58,988 nucleotides of DNA from an uncultured bacterium. Lineage in GTDB: Bacteria; Verrucomicrobiota; Kiritimatiellia; RFP12; UBA1067. The stretch is from assembly GCA_902779865.1 (NCBI GenBank), contig CACZDG010000004.1, forward strand, positions 1 to 58,988. Reading direction: 5' to 3'. The notes under the pieces are model-generated. The model searched no databases. It saw only the letters and a list, made by a program, of their open reading frames with translations, and had not been told where the DNA came from. The translations under genes were made by a program, and so were the position numbers. Shown piece after piece: positions 28,700 through 38,574 of this stretch; the stretch's first letter is position 1; every line of letters starts with the position of its first letter.

Positions 28700-29033
28700 G
28701 TATTGTTTGAAGAATTTTCTATTCGGTAAGGCAAGGTATAATGGCATGACGCTATTGATTACTGATTGATTAATGAAAAGTTATTCAGGATGTTCCCAGA
28801 CATTCAGGATGTTCAGGGTTCGAAACCTGTAGATAACTAGTAGATAATTTGCGAAAAAGTTTTCATATCTTCCTCTTGATTTTTACAACATCTCTTGGAA
28901 TCCCTTGCAAATAAAGGGTCAAATGCATATTTGCCATTTACATGTTGTCGCATAACATTGTATTTCCATGAATTTTATATTTTGTTTACAACTTCATTAT
29001 GTTTTCTCTATAAATATGGTATAATACGGACCC
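28700..29033. other. AT-rich divergent intergenic region
   Basis: No gene is credible here. Transcription leaves this stretch in both directions (TetR to the left, mnmG to the right). It contains a CATTCAGGATGTTC-like direct repeat (about 28785-28815), two TAGATAA motifs (about 28830-28850), runs of A and T, and the mnmG promoter. It could be part of a replication origin region, but good DnaA boxes are not seen here. Confidence 0.5.
29017..29025 (+). promoter_or_regulatory. Extended -10 promoter of mnmG
   Basis: TGGTATAAT (extended -10) lies 8 bases before the ATG at 29034, with no ribosome binding site between, so the mRNA would be leaderless or nearly so. A second, upstream possibility is TTTACA (28985) with TATAAA (29009). 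Confidence 0.6.
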
Positions 29034-31877
29034 ATGCAACAGCAATATGACATTATCATAGTAGGCGGCGGACATGCCGGTGCAGAAGCGTCGCTCATCG
29101 CAGCAAGAATGGGCGCACATACGCTTTTGGTGACAGGTCTTCTTGACGCCATCGCCCGTATGCCTTGCAATCCGTCCATCGGCGGTTTGGCAAAAAGCCA
29201 TCTTGTATTTGAGTTGGATGCCCTTGGCGGTGAAATGGGATTCAATGCCGACTTGACCTCACTTCAGGAAAAGACACTCAATACCAGCCGTGGACCCGCC
29301 GTTCAGGCCACGCGGGCCCAATGTGATAAAAAAGAATATACTCTCCGAATGCAACGGGTAATCGCCTCGCAACCCAATCTGGATATCATTGAAGATGCTG
29401 TAATCGGGATTGAGACATGCATCACCCAATCATCAAATGCTGAATCAGAAACATCCACCCGTTACCAAATTACCGGCATACAAACCGAACACCATGGTTT
29501 CATTCCTGCAAAGTGCGTAATTCTCACGACAGGAACATCCTTGCGCGGCCGCATCTTCATAGGGAAAGAATCCACACCTTCAGGGGGAGATGGTCGCCCA
29601 GCTGTTGACCAATTAAGTGAATCACTCAAAAAACACGGCTTCAAACTCATACGACTTAAGACTGGTACACCCCCTAGACTGGCAGCCAATTCTATTGATT
29701 TCACAAGAACGTCAATGCAATCAGGTGAGGAGAATCCACCATACTTTTCCCTTCGTACAAGATTTTACGAAGGTGAATTAGCATCAAATTTCCAATCTGT
29801 CGAAATTCCTCACAGTTTTAATAATGAACTTCCAACATCTAACCGCGAGAGTGCTATTTCAACTTTTTCTTCTGGCACTAATGGGATCACCGTATTATCT
29901 ACAGAGGTTAGCGCGAATAATTATTCTTCTATAGCTGCTATTCGTGATGCAACAACTACTATCACATCAGTAAGGAAAACTAATTTCCAATCTTCTGAAC
30001 GTGTTTCCACGTGGAAACATGCGATTGGTATTCATGATGAAATCACCAACGTTCCACACACACATTCCCTTTCACACACACTCATTCATCACAATACTAT
30101 CCACGAATTACCCTGCGTTACAACCCATCAACCCACTGATATATCATCCATGCACCGTACAAAGACAGAAAGGTCAGATCATAAAGAAAACTCTTCCAAT
30201 CAACCTTATGGACGTACAAACTCCAATACGTGTACCACCAATTACAAAGATATCATTGATGATATTACGGATAACAATGCTCACCACATTTTCAACCATA
30301 TAAACCATTCTACATCCAATTGTAGTGATATAAATTTTACGTCTAATGACATTCATGAGCAAAACTCCAACATAAAACAATGTCATCATAGTTACCATTT
30401 CTCAAATGATGCGACGACCCTCTCAAATAATAATCTCCATGAAACGCGAAAAGAAAATATTCTACACTCCTCTCCTGTTGTAGAGACCGCTCATCCATGT
30501 TGTAAACCTGAACACAATCTTGATTCATCAAGTCTAATCCAAAAACTAGGCATAAACATACCTAATATCAATCCTAGTTCTATCAATCATATATGTTTTG
30601 ATTCTTATTCATCCCTATCCCTCAATAAAACTATTTCTGTTTCCACGTGGAAACATGCAATGCCGACTGCACAGCTGCATTACGCCCCATGGCTGCTAAA
30701 TTCGCCCAAAATGGCGTGTTTTGCAACTCGCACTACATCCAAAACGCATGAAATAATACAATCTCACTTGAAGGACAGCGCCCTATATGGTGGTGCAATT
30801 GAAGGTACAGGAGTTCGATATTGTCCCTCAATTGAAGATAAAATCGTGCGCTTCCCTGATGCATCTAGCCACCATGTGATGCTTGAACCTGAAGACCGAG
30901 CGGGAACTATCATATATCCAAACGGTCTTTCAAACAGCTTGCCTAAGGAAGTACAGGAAGAACTTGTCCATTCCGTTCCAGGTCTTGAACACGCAAAGTT
31001 TCTTGCATACGCATATGCAATAGAATATGACGGTATAGATGCACGTGAATTAAAACATACTCTTGAATCAAAACGTATTTCAGGATTGTACTTTGCGGGG
31101 CAAGTCAATGGAACAACAGGATACGAAGAAGCCGCCGCACAGGGAATTATGGCTGGTATCAACGCTGTTTTTGCAATCCGTAACGAGAAACCATTGGTGT
31201 TAAGCCGACAGGATGCCTACATAGGTGTGCTAATAGATGATCTGGTCACTAAAGGAACAGACGAGCCGTATCGTATGTTTACTAGTCGCGCTGAACGACG
31301 TCTCATTCTTCGACAGGACAACGCAAGATTTCGTTTGTCAAACGCTGCCAACCGGATAGGTGTCCTTCCGATGGCAATTAGAGAACAGACTCATCGTATC
31401 GAAAAGATTATATCATATATCGAGTGTGAAACGAACCTTGACATACAATCCAAACGAAAAGCTCTCAATCATTTTCTAAACTCATGTAACGCACTTTCTA
31501 CAGATTTTGAAGGAACGCCGTCATCCATTCCAATTGAACTTGACGAACTATTTTCAATAGCAGAAACTGCAACTGAAATAAAAACACCTTTAGACACGTA
31601 TGAACGGTTGACCATTCTTGAACAACTTTGGATACGACATCATTACGCTAGTTACATACGGCAAGAAAATATTGCGGCAGAAAGGGCAAAGCGTGATGAG
31701 AACATCCAAATTCCTCGCTGGCTTGACTTCGACTCATGTACAGCTGTGCGATATGAAAGCCGGGAAAAACTCAAGAAATACCGTCCGGAAACACTTGCCC
31801 AAGCAAAACAGATTCCTGGAGTAAATCCTGCAGACATCGCAGTTCTTGCTATAATAATCAAGCGAGGTCATATATAA
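29034..31877 (+). CDS. mnmG: tRNA uridine modification enzyme MnmG (GidA) with large internal insert
   Basis: 947 residues, against roughly 620-650 for the family. Residues 1-243 carry the FAD-binding N-terminus ([52 protein letters not shown]). The conserved sequence resumes near residue 560 with [60 protein letters not shown] and a normal C-terminus. Between them lies a roughly 310-residue Asn/Ser/His/Thr-rich segment. MnmG with MnmE adds the carboxymethylaminomethyl group to U34 of tRNAs. mnmG is often close to the chromosomal origin, as here (dnaA is 2.5 kb on). No ribosome binding site precedes the ATG. Confidence 0.95.
30002..30019. promoter_or_regulatory. parS-like palindrome 1
   Basis: A perfect 18-bp palindrome, TGTTTCCACGTGGAAACA. 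Its core shares CCACGTGG with ParB-binding parS sites (consensus near TGTTTCACGTGAAACA or TGTTCCACGTGGAACA). In the mnmG frame it encodes VSTWKH. Confidence 0.7.
30638..30655. promoter_or_regulatory. parS-like palindrome 2
   Basis: An identical second copy of the 18-bp palindrome, 636 bases from the first and in the same codon frame (again VSTWKH). The identity extends two bases further (TGC after the site), while the surrounding insert is unrelated. Confidence 0.7.
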
Positions 31878-31921
31878 ATTATGCGTCAAATTTTGAAAGC
31901 GCAGAAGTGCCGGAATTGTGA

Positions 31922-31927
31922 TATACT
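31922..31927 (+). promoter_or_regulatory. Extended -10 element before the antiporter gene
   Basis: TGATATACT (TGn plus TATACT) lies 10 bases before the ATG at 31938, with no Shine-Dalgarno between. A TTGAAA at 31893 is too far for a normal -35, so this would be an extended -10 promoter. Confidence 0.4.
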
Positions 31928-31937
31928 TAAAAGCGTT

Positions 31938-34229
31938 ATGAACAAAAAGATTTTCTGGACTTGTTTGTCCTTTTTGCTTGTCTCCAGCGTGTTAGCCGGA
32001 GATGCATCTGGCGTGGAAAATGTAAAGCAGGCCGTGCAGGAAGTACCGCTTGCCCATAAGATGACATTGCTAGCACTGCAGATCGGCCTAATCCTTTTCG
32101 CGGCAAAGCTTGGAGGTATGCTTGCATCTCTCTTCCGCCTTCCAAGTGTTCTTGGTGAACTTGCGAGTGGCATTGTTATCGGACCTTATGCGTTCGGCGG
32201 AGTAGGATTAGGCAACGGACTATTTGCAAACGGATTGATTCCAGCCGCTTCTGGAACAATGCCCATCACTCCGGAATTGTACGGACTCTGCACGATAGCC
32301 TCCGTGATACTTCTATTCATGTCCGGCCTTGAGACAAACCTGAAGATGTTCTTGAAGCTGGCGTTCGCAGGCTCGCTCGTCGGCATCGGCGGCGTGGTGG
32401 CGAGTTTTCTGCTTGGAGATCTGTGTACCGTCTATCTGCTGCCGAAGTTCCTGCCAAGCAGTTTTGGTTATCTCGCGCAACTAGCTGCAAGTAATCCAGT
32501 CCAGGCAATTCTCGATCCGGCTGCCATGTTCATGGGAATTATGTCAACAGCCACAAGCGTAGGCATAACTGCGCGCATTCTCTCTGAACGCCGAAAGATG
32601 GACAGCGAAGAGGGCGTAACAATAATGTCTGGCGCTGTCATTGACGACGTACTTGGCATCATTGTTCTCGCCATCGGCATGGCTATCATCAAAGCAGAGG
32701 AGGCAAGTGGTGGAAACGGGCAAGCCAGCGTCAAGTGGCTTGAAATCGGCAAAGTTGCTCTCAACGCATTTGGCCTCTGGCTTGGTGGCACCGCAGTGGG
32801 CATAATCTTCGCCCGAAGAATTTCCTGGTTGCTGAAACTGTTCAAGAGCCCGATTGCGATTGGAACACTCGCGTTTGGACTATCATTAGTTATAGCTGGC
32901 CTATTTGAAGCTTTCGGGCTCACATTGATAATCGGCGCATACGTCATGGGCCTGTCGCTTTCTCGCACCGACATCAAATACATGATTCAGGAAAACCTTG
33001 AACCTATCTATACTTTCTTCGTTCCTGTGTTCTTCTGCGTAATGGGCATGATGGTGGATTGCAAGGCACTATGCTCGGAACCGGTACTCATCTTCGGAGG
33101 CATCTACACAGCATTGGCAGTAGTCGCGAAGATTACAGGTTGCGCACTTCCTTCGATGTTCTGCGGCTTCAACTTGAAGGGAGCTCTACGTATCGGCGCA
33201 GGCATGATACCGCGTGGAGAGGTGGCGCTTATCATCGCCGGCATAGGCGTTTCAACGATGCACAACGGCAAACCCATACTTACGCAGGAAGTGTTCGGCA
33301 TAGGCATAATGATGACTCTCATAACAACTATCGTTGCGCCTCCATGTCTGGTTGGATTGTTCAACTTGAAGGGTGCAGGGGTACGTCATCGGAAGATTAA
33401 CACCGACGGTTCGCGTGCCGTTACCTTTACGCTCAAGAACGAAATGATGGCAGACTTGATGCTCCAGAAACTCGTGAACGTCTTCAGACAAGATGGTTTC
33501 TTCACGCATCTCTACGATTCCCGCGAAAACATCTGGGCTATTTCAATGGACGATATTGAGATATCAATAAGAAAAGAGGACAACAACATTTGCTGCGAAT
33601 GTACACCTGCAGAGGAGAATCTTGTAGTCAACGCATGGATGGAGGTTGTAAGCGAAATGAACACGCTGGCAAAGACTCTGTCTCGTCCGATCCGTAAATC
33701 GGAAATAGAGAAACTGATTCCGAAAAACGACGAGAAGGCTAATACCGACAACATCGCATCTCGTTTCATCCGCGGATTCCTTATGATTCCAAATTTCAAG
33801 GCACACTCGAAAAAGGAGGCTCTCGAAAAACTAGTCGATGCAATCCAAGAAGCATGCCCCAAGAGCGTGGTAGATACGGAACTCTGCAAGAAATCCGTGT
33901 TCGAACGCGAGGAATCAATGCCCACTGGACTTGATCATGGAATCGCAGTGCCTCACGGACGTACCACTGGCGTCAATAGCGTCGTAGGTGCAGTGGCTCT
34001 TGTTGACAACTCAGAAAACGAAAATGGTATCATCCCAGACTACGAGACAATAGACCATTCACGTATCCAAATCATAGTTCTCACGCTCGTTCCGGCAGAA
34101 GGACAGACCCCTTATCTACAGTTGATGGCGTTCATAAGTCGCGTAATGAGATCGGAAGAAAGCCAAGAAAAATTGCTTGCATGTAAAACAGAAGAAGAAA
34201 TGAAAAAGTTTTTTAAACATCTTCAATAG
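31938..34229 (+). CDS. CPA2-type cation:proton antiporter fused to PTS EIIA-like domain
   Basis: 763 residues from the ATG at 31938, which gives a clean signal-like N-terminus (MNKKIFWTCLSFLLVSSVLA). Residues about 40-450 have some twelve hydrophobic segments of a KefB/NapA-type Na+/H+ or K+/H+ exchanger (PSVLGELASGIVIGPYAFGG, VIDDVLGIIVLAIGMAI, MIPRGEVALIIAGIG). Residues about 480-600 are a soluble linker domain. Residues 605-763 form a PTS EIIA type-2 domain, with the phospho-acceptor-type His673 in HGIAVPHGRT. An EIIA domain could let phosphotransferase status regulate ion exchange at the inner membrane. An in-frame ATG at 31881 is less likely because it would hide the signal-like segment. 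Confidence 0.88.
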   Translation: MNKKIFWTCLSFLLVSSVLAGDASGVENVKQAVQEVPLAHKMTLLALQIGLILFAAKLGGMLASLFRLPSVLGELASGIVIGPYAFGGVGLGNGLFANGLIPAASGTMPITPELYGLCTIASVILLFMSGLETNLKMFLKLAFAGSLVGIGGVVASFLLGDLCTVYLLPKFLPSSFGYLAQLAASNPVQAILDPAAMFMGIMSTATSVGITARILSERRKMDSEEGVTIMSGAVIDDVLGIIVLAIGMAIIKAEEASGGNGQASVKWLEIGKVALNAFGLWLGGTAVGIIFARRISWLLKLFKSPIAIGTLAFGLSLVIAGLFEAFGLTLIIGAYVMGLSLSRTDIKYMIQENLEPIYTFFVPVFFCVMGMMVDCKALCSEPVLIFGGIYTALAVVAKITGCALPSMFCGFNLKGALRIGAGMIPRGEVALIIAGIGVSTMHNGKPILTQEVFGIGIMMTLITTIVAPPCLVGLFNLKGAGVRHRKINTDGSRAVTFTLKNEMMADLMLQKLVNVFRQDGFFTHLYDSRENIWAISMDDIEISIRKEDNNICCECTPAEENLVVNAWMEVVSEMNTLAKTLSRPIRKSEIEKLIPKNDEKANTDNIASRFIRGFLMIPNFKAHSKKEALEKLVDAIQEACPKSVVDTELCKKSVFEREESMPTGLDHGIAVPHGRTTGVNSVVGAVALVDNSENENGIIPDYETIDHSRIQIIVLTLVPAEGQTPYLQLMAFISRVMRSEESQEKLLACKTEEEMKKFFKHLQ

Positions 34230-34361
34230 TTTTTTCAATTTTATCGTTTAAAAGTTATCTAAAATAATTGTTAATAACTTGTAAACATTTTATCATCTTT
34301 TGTGCGTGGCTTTTGTCCGAAATTATGGTTCAATATTGATATCGATTTTGAGGAAAATGGA

Positions 34362-35795
34362 ATGATAGAGAACACATTACAGATTGCTCCCGATGGATTG
34401 TGGGAGAAGGTTTGCAATTTGGTGAGAAACCATTTAGCAACTGAAAGCGAACGTAGTCAGATGGAACGCTATTTTCCGATGTTCGTTTCTCACGAACTTG
34501 TGGAAAACGTAGTGCACATCGGCGTTGCGGAGGCCATTCAAGTGGAATGGTTTACTCCTCTTTACGAAAAGCCTATCGAAAGGGCGTTTGAGGAACTTGG
34601 GTATCCAGGTGTCAGCGTTGTATTCGAAGTTTCGCAATCCAGAAAACAGTCAGCGCAGTTGATACCTGCTTTTTCACCTGCACAGACATTTCTGCAAAAG
34701 CAAACATCGCCACAGCATGTGTTTACTGGCGTACCATCTACTCTCCCTCTTGAGGAAAACTACACGTTCGAAAACTTCGTGACAGGTCCTTCGAACTCTT
34801 TCGCTCATGCGGCCGCTAGTGCAGTGGCAAAGGGACTTGGACGCACTTCGTACAACCCGCTTTTCATCTATGGAGGCACTGGGCTAGGCAAAACTCACTT
34901 GATGCAGTCAATCGGACATTACGTGTTGGATAGAAATCCAAGCGCGTCAGTGTGCTACATCACTTCTGAAACTTTTCTAAACGAATACGTCAACGCAATC
35001 GCAAACGGAGCAATGCCGGCTTTCCGTGAACGCTACCGAAAGGTGGACGTACTTCTTCTCGACGACGTGCAGTTCATTGCGGACAAGAAACAGTTCCAGG
35101 AAGAATTCTTCAACACGTTCAGTTCTCTAATGACGTATAAAAAGCAAGTCGTAATGACAAGCGACGTGGCGCCAAAGAACCTAAAGGGATGCGAAGAGCG
35201 TCTGACCGGACGATTCCAGCAGGGAATGGTTGTGGAAATCGAGGCACCTTCCTACGAAACGAGACTTGCAATTCTCAAGTTCAAGGTCAAGTCACTTGAA
35301 TCCAAGCATGTGATTCCAGAGGAAATACTCAAGTTCATAGCTGAAAACATACGCTCACACGTCCGTGCGCTGGAAGGGGCCATAAGCCGCGTAATCACTT
35401 TCATGGACTTGAACAAAGACATGCCTATGACGCTTGAAATTATCCAGCACCTTCTCAAGGATTCGATAGAAGAGGAAAAGACCATAAAAGACCTCACCGT
35501 AGAAGACATAATGAAGGCTGTATCAAGCACGTACGGCGTTACGCTGTCGGACATCGTTTCGCCGCAGCGCACGCAGACTCTCGTTACGCCAAGACAAGTC
35601 GCAATGTACCTTTCATACAAGCTATCAACGCGCTCGCTTCAGGAGATAGGGCGATCCTTCGGCAAGACGCACGCAACGGTTTACCACGGTGCACAGACCA
35701 TCCAGAAGCGGATAGACGTTGAAAGCGATTTGAGGAAAACAATAGAGAACATAACGTCTCAGCTCGGAAGAAACCCGTCGGAACTCTATAAATGA
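34362..35795 (+). CDS. dnaA: Chromosomal replication initiator protein DnaA
   Basis: 477 residues. N-terminal helicase-interacting domain (residues 1-85), a Gln/Ser/Pro linker, then the AAA+ core: YTFENFVTGPSNSFAHAAA, Walker A GGTGLGKTH at 171-179, Walker B VDVLLLDDVQFI, and a sensor with LTGRFQQGMV. Domain IV has the DnaA-box-binding helix-turn-helix and signature RSLQEIGRSFGKTHATVYHG. It binds DnaA boxes and melts the origin. I chose the ATG at 34362, which follows GAGGAAAATGG; the 20 residues upstream are unlike DnaA. The gene sits 70 bp after the antiporter and is followed by dnaN, a common origin layout. Confidence 0.98.
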   Translation: MIENTLQIAPDGLWEKVCNLVRNHLATESERSQMERYFPMFVSHELVENVVHIGVAEAIQVEWFTPLYEKPIERAFEELGYPGVSVVFEVSQSRKQSAQLIPAFSPAQTFLQKQTSPQHVFTGVPSTLPLEENYTFENFVTGPSNSFAHAAASAVAKGLGRTSYNPLFIYGGTGLGKTHLMQSIGHYVLDRNPSASVCYITSETFLNEYVNAIANGAMPAFRERYRKVDVLLLDDVQFIADKKQFQEEFFNTFSSLMTYKKQVVMTSDVAPKNLKGCEERLTGRFQQGMVVEIEAPSYETRLAILKFKVKSLESKHVIPEEILKFIAENIRSHVRALEGAISRVITFMDLNKDMPMTLEIIQHLLKDSIEEEKTIKDLTVEDIMKAVSSTYGVTLSDIVSPQRTQTLVTPRQVAMYLSYKLSTRSLQEIGRSFGKTHATVYHGAQTIQKRIDVESDLRKTIENITSQLGRNPSELYK

Positions 35796-36059
35796 CAACC
35801 ATTCAAAAACGTGTGCGCATCATGTTCATAACATCTGTCGTTATCTAAATTAATCTACAGTCGAAACAAAAATGAAAAGTTCCCTACAGAGTGCTTTAAG
35901 CAATGTCAACAGCAATGACATGCGTCGCATCACTGTAAATGCGCACCGAAACCAACTTATGAACAGTATCAACATCCCTAATAATATTTACTTAAATTAC
36001 TTTACTCAATACAAATAATAGTGTAAACTGTACGTCCATCCAAACAAAAGGAGTTGTCT
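35796..36059. other. dnaA-dnaN intergenic region
   Basis: 264 AT-rich bases without a gene. The dnaN promoter is at its right end. Only weak 9-mers such as TTATCTAAA resemble DnaA boxes, fewer and poorer than those at 38469-38574. Confidence 0.5.
36001..36029 (+). promoter_or_regulatory. Promoter of dnaN
   Basis: TTTACT (36001-36006) and TAAACT (36024-36029) with a 17-bp spacer, followed by AAAGGAG 6 bases before the ATG at 36060. Confidence 0.55.
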
Positions 36060-37154
36060 ATGAAGTTTAAAATAGTAAGATCGAAGTTTCTAGAGGGCCT
36101 CAAGAAGGTTCAGAACATCGTTGGTTCTAAAGGAACGATGCAAATTCTCCAGAATGTCATGATAGAGGCAAGGGAGAAGCAGTTGCTTTTGACTACGACT
36201 GATCTCGACATTTCAATTCGTAGCGTCATAGAGTGCGAAGTTGATGACGAGGGTAGCACCACTCTTCCCGTGAAGCTTCTTTTCAGCGTAATATCCAAGG
36301 CTGCGGAGGGCGTGGTCGAGGTTGAAGTAGATTCGCAGGACCGCGCCATCATAAAAGCCGGCACGGCCACTTTCAAGATCACGGGAATGTCAGTGGTTGA
36401 CTATCCCGCCCTGCCTGTTGATCAGAACACGTTTGAATACGTCCTTCCGCAGATTACATTGCGCGAGATGCTTCGCAAGACAGCATACGCAGCTTCCCAG
36501 GACGATACCCGCAAAACGCTCAAGGGCGTGTTTGCGTCGTTCAAGGAAGGAAAGCTAACGATGGTGGTCACGGATGGACGCCGTCTCGCTCTGGTTGAAC
36601 ATGAAATCGAACTTCCCGAGCAGGCGGAGCGCGACGTGATTCTTCCGCTCAAGGTTGTAAACGAATTGCAGCGTTCGCTTGCCAACGAAGGTGACGTTCG
36701 CATTACCATCGAGAAGACTCAGATAGCGTTCAACCTTGGTGATACCCGCATTTATTCAAAGCTGCTCGACGAAGTTTATCCAAACTACCGTCAGGTCATT
36801 CCAACCGAGTTTGCCGAGAAGATAGTTGTGGATAGACAGCTTCTGCTGTCCGCACTTGATCGCGCGAGCGTGATGATGCTCGAAGATTCAAACTCCACCA
36901 GGCTTATCTTCGACTCCAACCAGCTTATCGTGACTGCAAGTGCCACGGAAGTTGCGGAATCCACCGATGTCGTGCCAATCAAGTACGATGGTCCGCGCAT
37001 TGAAATAGTTTTCAACCCTGGTTACGTGATGGATCCGCTTAAGGCGATTGACGAAGATGAAGTCACGATCGAATTGAACGACGGAACAAAGCCTGCCATG
37101 ATCAGGTGCTCTATTCCGTTCCTGTATGTGATGATGCCGCTGCGAATCAGCTGA
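36060..37154 (+). CDS. dnaN: DNA polymerase III subunit beta (sliding clamp)
   Basis: 364 residues, normal clamp length. Three repeated clamp domains are visible: the N-terminal VQNIVGSKGTMQILQNVMIEA, the middle FEYVLPQITLREMLRKTAYAAS with VTDGRRLALVE, and the C-terminal segment ending in CSIPFLYVMMPLRIS (the usual Y-V-x-MP-x-R-L end). The ring holds polymerase III on DNA. Start is ATG at 36060 with a strong ribosome site. It follows dnaA as in many origins, but recF does not follow; an RNA methyltransferase gene does. Confidence 0.97.
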   Translation: MKFKIVRSKFLEGLKKVQNIVGSKGTMQILQNVMIEAREKQLLLTTTDLDISIRSVIECEVDDEGSTTLPVKLLFSVISKAAEGVVEVEVDSQDRAIIKAGTATFKITGMSVVDYPALPVDQNTFEYVLPQITLREMLRKTAYAASQDDTRKTLKGVFASFKEGKLTMVVTDGRRLALVEHEIELPEQAERDVILPLKVVNELQRSLANEGDVRITIEKTQIAFNLGDTRIYSKLLDEVYPNYRQVIPTEFAEKIVVDRQLLLSALDRASVMMLEDSNSTRLIFDSNQLIVTASATEVAESTDVVPIKYDGPRIEIVFNPGYVMDPLKAIDEDEVTIELNDGTKPAMIRCSIPFLYVMMPLRIS

Positions 37155-37184: not shown

Positions 37185-38504
37185 ATGAAAATTTGGACGG
37201 ATAGGCGCTATCCGATCATTCTCTCATGCGCCAAATGTCTTGCGCCATGGGTTGAGGACGAGGTGCGCAGCCTTGGCTACAAGCCTATAGACAAAACTGA
37301 AAACATGGTTGTGGTTGAGGGAGCGATGCGTGATGTGTTCAAGTTGAACCTTCGCCTTCGCACCGCTCACCGAGTTCTCGTTCCACTGCTTCGTGCTAGA
37401 TGCAGGCATATCCGTGAACTCTACGACCTGATAACGACCATTGATTGGGAAAACCTCATCGCAGATGACGACTACTTTTCAGTTTCATCAGTAGTTTACA
37501 ATGACACCATCCGCGATACCCGCTTGCCGTCGCTTAAGACAAAAGATGCCATAGCCGACCGCATCCGCAGCAAGTGTGGGCGGCGTCCTGATTCCGGACC
37601 TGACTACGACCGTGGCGTTGCAGTGTTTTTGCATTGGGAACGCGACCGCATGATAATCTACCTCGATACAAGCGGTGCACCGCTCTCTAAACGCGGCTAC
37701 CGCAAGATTCCAGGTTCCGCCCCAATGCAAGAGACCCTTGCAGCAGCCTGCATAGACGCGCTGCACTGGGATAGGAAGACGCCGTTTCTTTCTCCGATGT
37801 GTGGTAGCGGCACTCCTGCCATTGAAGCAGCACTTGCCGCAATTAACCGCGCACCTGGTTCACTTCGTGCACATTTCGGCTTCATGTCGATAAAGGGATA
37901 TAAACAAATCATCTCTGGAACTACCGCGCCTAGATCAGCTCCACGCCAGCGCTTCGGAGTTACCCCCGAGCAAATATGGAAAGATATGGTGCTTGAAGCC
38001 GCTGAACAGGAAAAAACTGACGATTTACCGCCTATAATCGCTACAGACATTTCCCCCGAGGCAATTGAAAACGCCAAATCAAACGCATACGCGGCAGGAG
38101 TTCATAAGTACATCACGTTCAAGGCATGCGATTTCGGAGATACGCCAATACCTCCTTCAGATACAACTGAACCTTTTGTTTCATTCTCAAAGACAGGAAA
38201 AGAAGGTTATAAAGCGCGTGGATGCGTGTTTTTCAATCCTGAATACGGCATACGCCTTGGTGATCCTGCCGAACTTGCCCCTATCTACGAAAGAATAGGC
38301 ACATTCATGAACGAGAAATGCCAAGGTTATACCGGTGGTGTGCTTACTGGAAGCCCAGAACTTTCAAAAATGATAAATTTGTTTTATGTAACTCGCTTTC
38401 CTTTTTACAATGGACCAATTGATTGCCGGTTGTTCGTATTTCCGGGATGTGAATTGAAGGGCGAACAGTTATCAACACAATTATCACCAACTGTTGATAA
38501 ATGA
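37185..38504 (+). CDS. RlmL-like THUMP-domain RNA methyltransferase
   Basis: 439 residues with an N-terminal ferredoxin-like/THUMP region (residues 1-165, CLAPWVEDEVRSLGY through VFLHWERDRMIIYLDTSG) and a UPF0020-type class I methyltransferase. The SAM motif reads FLSPMCGSGTPAIEAA, with Ser where RlmL usually has Asp, and the catalytic motif reads NPEYG (residues 351-355) rather than NPPYG. The ATDISPEAIENAKSNA motif is intact. Relatives methylate G2445 of 23S rRNA; here the altered motifs leave activity open. The ribosome site AAGGAGGG is strong. The last dozen codons overlap DnaA-box-like repeats. Confidence 0.85.
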   Translation: MKIWTDRRYPIILSCAKCLAPWVEDEVRSLGYKPIDKTENMVVVEGAMRDVFKLNLRLRTAHRVLVPLLRARCRHIRELYDLITTIDWENLIADDDYFSVSSVVYNDTIRDTRLPSLKTKDAIADRIRSKCGRRPDSGPDYDRGVAVFLHWERDRMIIYLDTSGAPLSKRGYRKIPGSAPMQETLAAACIDALHWDRKTPFLSPMCGSGTPAIEAALAAINRAPGSLRAHFGFMSIKGYKQIISGTTAPRSAPRQRFGVTPEQIWKDMVLEAAEQEKTDDLPPIIATDISPEAIENAKSNAYAAGVHKYITFKACDFGDTPIPPSDTTEPFVSFSKTGKEGYKARGCVFFNPEYGIRLGDPAELAPIYERIGTFMNEKCQGYTGGVLTGSPELSKMINLFYVTRFPFYNGPIDCRLFVFPGCELKGEQLSTQLSPTVDK

Positions 38505-38574
38505 GTAATAAACAGACTTATCATCACCTGTTTATAACTTGACTTGTGATAAAACTGTTGATAATTGTTGATAA
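38469..38574. other. DnaA-box cluster, candidate oriC element
   Basis: Within 106 bases there are four exact TTATCAACA 9-mers, at 38469 (plus) and at 38492, 38556 and 38566 (minus, TGTTGATAA), and four near copies (TTATCACCA at 38481, TTATCATCA at 38518, TGTTTATAA at 38529, TTGTGATAA at 38544). TTATCAACA differs from the classic TTATCCACA box at one base. The cluster lies 2.7 kb after dnaA, overlaps the end of the methyltransferase gene and is AT-rich, so it could be an origin or a DnaA titration/regulation site. Confidence 0.65.

Follow-up and report, generated by a model that had tools for sequence, protein, structure and literature searches.

Few protein-DNA pairs in bacteria are as conserved as ParB and its site parS, and the question at stake here is how they change when several sites have to change at once. 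Sites within genes have been described: in Pseudomonas aeruginosa, nine of ten predicted parS sites most likely lie within coding sequences, according to PMC4368675, in the text of which gidA (mnmG) was not found. In the laboratory, ParB specificity has been switched from parS to NBS at residues 173, 179, 184 and 201, as described in PMC7383237, which also names Q162, G170, K171, S172 and N178 of Caulobacter ParB as contacts to parS that are conserved between ParB and Noc, with R173 reading guanine 1 of parS. Titles and abstract starts of the open-licence PMC literature yielded no paper on parS in mnmG or gidA, nor did our searches of it find one on natural ParB types with a longer half-site. 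Hence parS within genes and laboratory switching of ParB specificity are known, whereas the mnmG location and the natural switches described below look new.

The sites analysed here resemble chromosomal parS in their CCACGTGG core and in occurring as a few copies in one cluster near dnaA and dnaN and, as in ParABS systems, there is a ParB gene in the genome whose product has ParB_N and HTH_ParB domains and a GERRQRA stretch. They depart from chromosomal parS in a half-site that is one base longer (YGTTTCCAC versus TGTTCCAC), and in that both copies lie in one conserved enzyme gene, a location common to many genera. Like those of P. aeruginosa they are inside coding sequence (PMC4368675), but they occupy one enlarged loop of one gene, in frames that differ between species. 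As in the ParB/Noc switch (PMC7383237), a few residues of the DNA-binding domain would change the specificity of a ParB-family protein; in contrast to that switch, the change here is natural and concerns residues 162, 178 and 181 together with a one-residue insertion in the turn. We read both palindromes as the parS centromere of this chromosome, lying inside the mnmG coding sequence in a loop that has probably grown to hold them and predicted to be bound by ParB, and assign this reading a probability of about 0.92.

The window (the whole 58,988-nucleotide stretch of DNA that was analysed) has these features around the sites:

29034..31877, + strand: mnmG (gidA), the host gene, 947 aa (Pfam GIDA, E 3.4e-141; SAM_GIDA_C, E 2.1e-20)
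29754..30707, + strand: MnmG loop expansion, residues ~241-558, carrying the sites (approximate boundaries, from structure alignment)
30002..30019, no strand: first parS-like palindrome, TGTTTCCACGTGGAAACA (exact match; VSTWKH in mnmG; ParB co-variation)
30638..30655, no strand: second parS-like palindrome, identical to the first, TGTTTCCACGTGGAAACA (exact match; in mnmG)
31881..34229, + strand: gene of the Na+/H+ exchanger type, carrying a PTS EIIA domain and separating mnmG from dnaA (domain search)
34302..35795, + strand: dnaA (Pfam Bac_DnaA, E 7.5e-63)
36054..37154, + strand: dnaN (Pfam DNA_pol3_beta domains)
38469..38574, no strand: putative oriC, four DnaA-box-like 9-mers with one mismatch to TTATCCACA, in AT-rich DNA

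As reported in an earlier note on this DNA, the 18-mer TGTTTCCACGTGGAAACA occurs twice, 636 bases (212 codons) apart from start to start and both times in frame as VSTWKH. That note had proposed a genome scan in which a random spread of the 18-mer would speak against parS; both copies proved to be in mnmG, near dnaA, and with up to three mismatches allowed there is no third place in the 4,298,331-base assembly (272 contigs, 92% complete). None of 100 dinucleotide shuffles of the window had two matches at up to three mismatches. The palindromes are thus few and clustered (2/2 in mnmG) rather than scattered, as expected of parS, and they also have the expected proximity to the putative origin, with dnaA and dnaN ~4-5 kb and the DnaA-box cluster ~8 kb away. 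mnmG is near dnaA and dnaN but not, as had been stated, directly beside them, since the exchanger-type gene intervenes. The DnaA-box-like cluster, a candidate oriC, lies downstream of an RlmL-like gene. Around the palindromes runs a direct repeat of 24 bp (96% identity), whose copies flank a G-poor segment of 612 bp. From the first site to the second (window 30002-30655) the G content is 10.7%, and the peptide between them appears by eye to abound in His, Asn, Ser and Thr. Known structured RNA at the sites was ruled out, with no Rfam family at gathering score in window 28800-32000.

The segment that carries the sites is indeed absent from ordinary MnmG: the ~318-residue loop has no counterpart in the solved MnmG structures aligned, although the core matches on both sides, and E. 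coli MnmG has 9 residues in its place (chain residues 250-258 of 9hip). That the loop might contain a known domain was rejected, as no Pfam family was found there.

The canonical 16-bp palindrome, TGTTNCACGTGNAACA, was not found in this genome, which has no exact GTTNCACGTGNAAC. With one mismatch there are 13 places, compared to 17 for the backwards control, and canonical parS elsewhere in the genome was hence rejected. Because the test with the canonical sequence failed here, the sites are counted as a variant that would work like parS. Three spellings occur among the relatives: variant A, TGTTCCACGTGGAACA, which is canonical parS; variant B, GTTTCCACGTGGAAAC, that of this genome; and variant C, TGTGCCACGTGGCACA. 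Most related genera, other than that of the window, have the canonical pattern. What is invariant among relatives with the spelling of this genome is the inner 16 bp, GTTTCCACGTGGAAAC, and not the full 18-mer; the base pair outside the 16-mer varies, with a pyrimidine on the left and a purine on the right in 33 of 33 VSTW[KE] copies from 11 genes, so that the variant-B site is best written YGTTTCCACGTGGAAACR. Judged by its letters, each half-site is most aptly described as the canonical TGTTCCAC lengthened by a single T. The difference from the classic 16-bp parS, which the earlier note had placed in the outer bases, is better put as this extra T. In G015 and G019, both copies in each have a non-palindromic centre, CATGTG instead of CACGTG.

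The strongest support for the parS reading comes from the agreement between the helix-turn-helix (HTH) of ParB and the type of site. One HTH_ParB gene was found in this genome and encodes a 362-aa ParB with the N-terminal domain, HTH and dimerisation domain of the family (ParB_N, E 4.2e-27, and HTH_ParB, E 1.6e-22, both over cut-off; ParB_C, E 8.2e-4, below its cut-off). The gene is on another contig than mnmG and adjoins rsfS; an M28 peptidase gene follows parB in G007 and G008, and the neighbours of parB that were scanned did not include parA. We fetched ParB for 57 genomes; the site type was known in 41 of these (with G019 taken as A and G015 as C), and 16 had none. We left out the variant-B genomes G002, G005, G013 and G022, which had no usable ParB HTH, and assigned Caulobacter residue numbers from the alignment with a constant offset of 10. 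HTH type and site type agreed in all 41 genomes (A 29/29, B 7/7, C 5/5). Variant-A ParBs have Q162, a turn without insertion, N178 and R181 (29/29); variant-B ParBs have Y162, one extra turn residue (GKKGR or GKKNR), N178 and G181 (7/7), a type found in 0/34 genomes with other site types; and variant-C ParBs have H178 (5/5). Residue 162 and the turn 170-173, two of the three variant-B differences, are parS contacts named for Caulobacter in the available sections of PMC7383237, where residue 181 is not named as one. A ParB whose site is clearly different had been held to count against parS: the protein of this genome does differ from the usual kind, but it does so together with the site (7/7 versus 0/34). 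As HTH and site type match, the site can be understood as a re-spelled parS whose half-site is one base longer, and the likeness to ParB sites first noticed in the window, with the centromere reading built on it, gains support from this co-variation and from canonical TGTTCCACGTGGAACA in the same loop of relatives.

In a tree of 37 of the 57 ParBs, variant C forms a clade inside the window's genus (99/99) and a second clade in another family (100/100), with well-supported branches between them. N178H would accordingly have arisen twice in these sequences, with variant C both times; given two separate clades, the same residue change met the same base change twice. As the 41 genomes are related, their agreement reduces to a small number of independent events, with B originating once and C twice. 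Of four genomes of the genus without mnmG, G001, G006 and G009 have a type-B ParB and G003 a type-C one, and they are predicted to show variant B and variant C, respectively, once their mnmG is known.

We consider it very improbable that the palindromes serve another protein, be it a factor for nucleoid occlusion like Noc or one that regulates mnmG or dnaA. The palindromes that Noc binds are similar to parS, according to PMC7383237, and, at 92% completeness, the assembly could lack a second ParB-type gene. Yet one HTH_ParB gene was found in this genome, and its product, the sole ParB-type HTH found, does not have the Q173 and R201 of Noc but keeps R173 and the glycine of GHA, R173 and G201 being kept in the ParBs here. 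Noc sites are usually many and scattered, whereas those here number 2-6 in one gene. Moreover, site type tracks the ParB ortholog in 41/41 genomes, and sister genera have canonical parS at the same place.

Variant-B genes have 2-6 VSTWK repeats, as might be expected if the MnmG loop had VSTWK as a functional motif and the palindrome simply followed from the codons used for it. That explanation has next to no probability left, and was rejected, because the reading frame changes between genera. The peptide over the palindrome is VSTWK in most of the window's genus and CATWH in some of its members, but CSTWN, FHVE(H/Q) or VPRGT in further genera. Variant-A sites use every reading frame, with a split of 13/23/6 for the 42 sites of 23 genes (sites with repeated contexts removed) and of 16/19/5 for the 40 sites of 13 further family genes (16 chosen family mnmG genes with L213, L217 and L221 dropped, these being L082, L077 and L081, already counted), and two frames are used within one gene in 6 of the 16 fetched family mnmG genes. 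Since the same palindrome is read in all three frames in sister genera, it is the DNA that is conserved and not the peptide. Codon choice also argues against a peptide motif: 30 of the 33 VSTW[KE] copies are spelled exactly GTT TCC ACG TGG AAA, for which the codon usage of 13 window genes gives an expected share of 0.6% per copy. Most other loop sequence cannot be aligned, the loop being alignable with relatives chiefly around the sites and near its ends. The comparison of MnmG from relatives therefore gave the reverse of the outcome named beforehand as refuting parS, the palindrome being kept as DNA while the peptide changes.

We searched for the sites in this genome and 40 relatives (154.1 Mb), with an MnmG match in 34 of the 41. 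Exact GTTTCCACGTGGAAAC occurs 30 times in 11 genomes, each time in mnmG, compared to a chance expectation of ~0.04 for that amount of DNA at equal base frequencies. In these genomes, exact A and C sites lie within mnmG or next to it, except in G036, where five canonical sites lie in a stretch without mnmG (L162:2722-3520), no mnmG match having been found in that genome; in G024, two exact sites are just downstream of mnmG and one degraded site is inside the gene. These two exceptions indicate that the mnmG location is usual but not obligatory. Inexact matches were distributed differently, with 10/20 one-mismatch A/C matches and 22/24 two-mismatch B matches outside mnmG.

In a sample of the phylum, exact TGTTNCACGTGNAACA was present in 60/115 genomes, versus none for the backwards control. 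Among the 75 sites listed, which come from 48 genomes, 61 fall within the mnmG match and 14 no more than 700 bp from it, and 60 of those 61 lie 676-810 nt from the start of the match, which places them in the MnmG loop seen in the window. We fetched 20 further mnmG stretches, 19 of them belonging to genomes that lack an exact site. A loop site with one or two mismatches is present in eight (six class relatives and two others), G074 has a two-mismatch canonical-type site, G060 has an exact site elsewhere in the stretch, and 10 of the 20 stretches, from some families of the phylum, have nothing within two mismatches. The last site precedes an RYCPS motif by 148-193 nt in the ten variant-B loci placed. 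In the family members L212, L218 and L219 (G178, G184 and G180), one canonical site each lies in a second, upstream loop expansion of MnmG (residues 180-230), which means that the enzyme has two loops able to carry a site.

Within the family, 55 of the 60 genomes with mnmG have an exact pattern match; the other five comprise G015 and G019, with one-mismatch pairs, and three with partial genes. The 17 of 77 genomes without clear mnmG (TIGR00136 match absent, or E 2e-6 or worse) have no palindromic site, and G003, whose single match is a non-palindromic degenerate one on another contig, is excluded from the 55. These 17 assemblies have a stated completeness of 56-92%. The association of mnmG with the site over the 77 genomes, as rows related to each other, gives a Fisher p of 5e-13; in this sample the backwards control matched 4 times. 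Location was covered for 47 of the 55, a count that leaves out G154, G155, G167, G179, G185, G191, G194 and G196 (covered for neither position nor palindromy), and is inside mnmG in 46 and just downstream in G024.

Named relatives found through MnmG bear the titles Kiritimatiellae, Lentisphaerae and Verrucomicrobia, and four come from goat gut. Canonical or variant-B sites are present in 13/13 of the loci L074-L086 (titled Kiritimatiellae, Lentisphaerae, Verrucomicrobia, uncultured bacterium and, once, Akkermansia), all of them inside mnmG. The other 67 of the 80 named mnmG loci, mostly titled Bacilli, Clostridia, Mycoplasmatota/Tenericutes or Cloacimonadota with some titles giving no phylum, have no exact site in mnmG, and two of them (L140 and L146) have canonical sites in flanking DNA. 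By eye, the MnmG loop of L084, titled Akkermansia muciniphila, matches the loop of G037, which belongs to the window's order, and the label looks wrong.

Palindromic elements occur within Rickettsia genes, and insertion in frame of a mobile or repetitive palindrome of that kind could be suggested by the 24-bp direct repeats around the 612-bp G-poor segment and by a palindrome copy number that differs between species, but we rejected it as scarcely credible, because the palindrome searched has no exact copy outside mnmG in its own assembly or in the 41 genomes, the sequence between the sites is not common to distant species and ParB co-variation would be left unexplained.

With the palindromes read as parS, other ParABS systems suggest how they would act. 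By analogy with these, from which binding, clamp loading, spreading and ParA action are all taken, ParB dimers would read each 9-bp half-site via the HTH, load as CTP clamps and spread over mnmG and the neighbouring origin genes, and ParA (and SMC) would pull and fold the origin region. The loop can host parS DNA presumably because this does not interfere with the tRNA-modifying enzyme. In variant B the half-site has gained one base pair, from TGTTCCAC to YGTTTCCAC, which puts the outer G one base pair further out, and ParB has gained one residue in the turn that places the recognition helix, no more than a few positions ahead of R173, the arginine that in Caulobacter reads the outer G, besides Q162Y and R181G. 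From these paired changes it is likely that the contact between arginine and guanine shifted one base pair outward along with its partner.

On balance, we think it probable that mnmG has doubled as a centromere gene across a large part of this phylum, by record titles Verrucomicrobiota, with a loop kept open, and expanded to ~320 residues in one Kiritimatiellae-like genus, as a coding-neutral platform for parS; that within this genus ParB and all parS copies moved together to the longer half-site via a one-residue HTH insertion; and that a second re-spelling (T to G, with N178H) took place independently in two families.

Closely related genomes thus seem to hold three ParB/site pairs, one of them reached twice. 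The sites are easy to find because they are in one gene, and with three findable pairs the route by which a centromere and its ParB co-evolve becomes directly testable. The pairs could become new orthogonal DNA-labelling systems, and mnmG could be an origin marker in metagenome assemblies of these bacteria. For the bacteria themselves, the finding would mean that a conserved enzyme gene has been shaped over many genera by a non-coding task.
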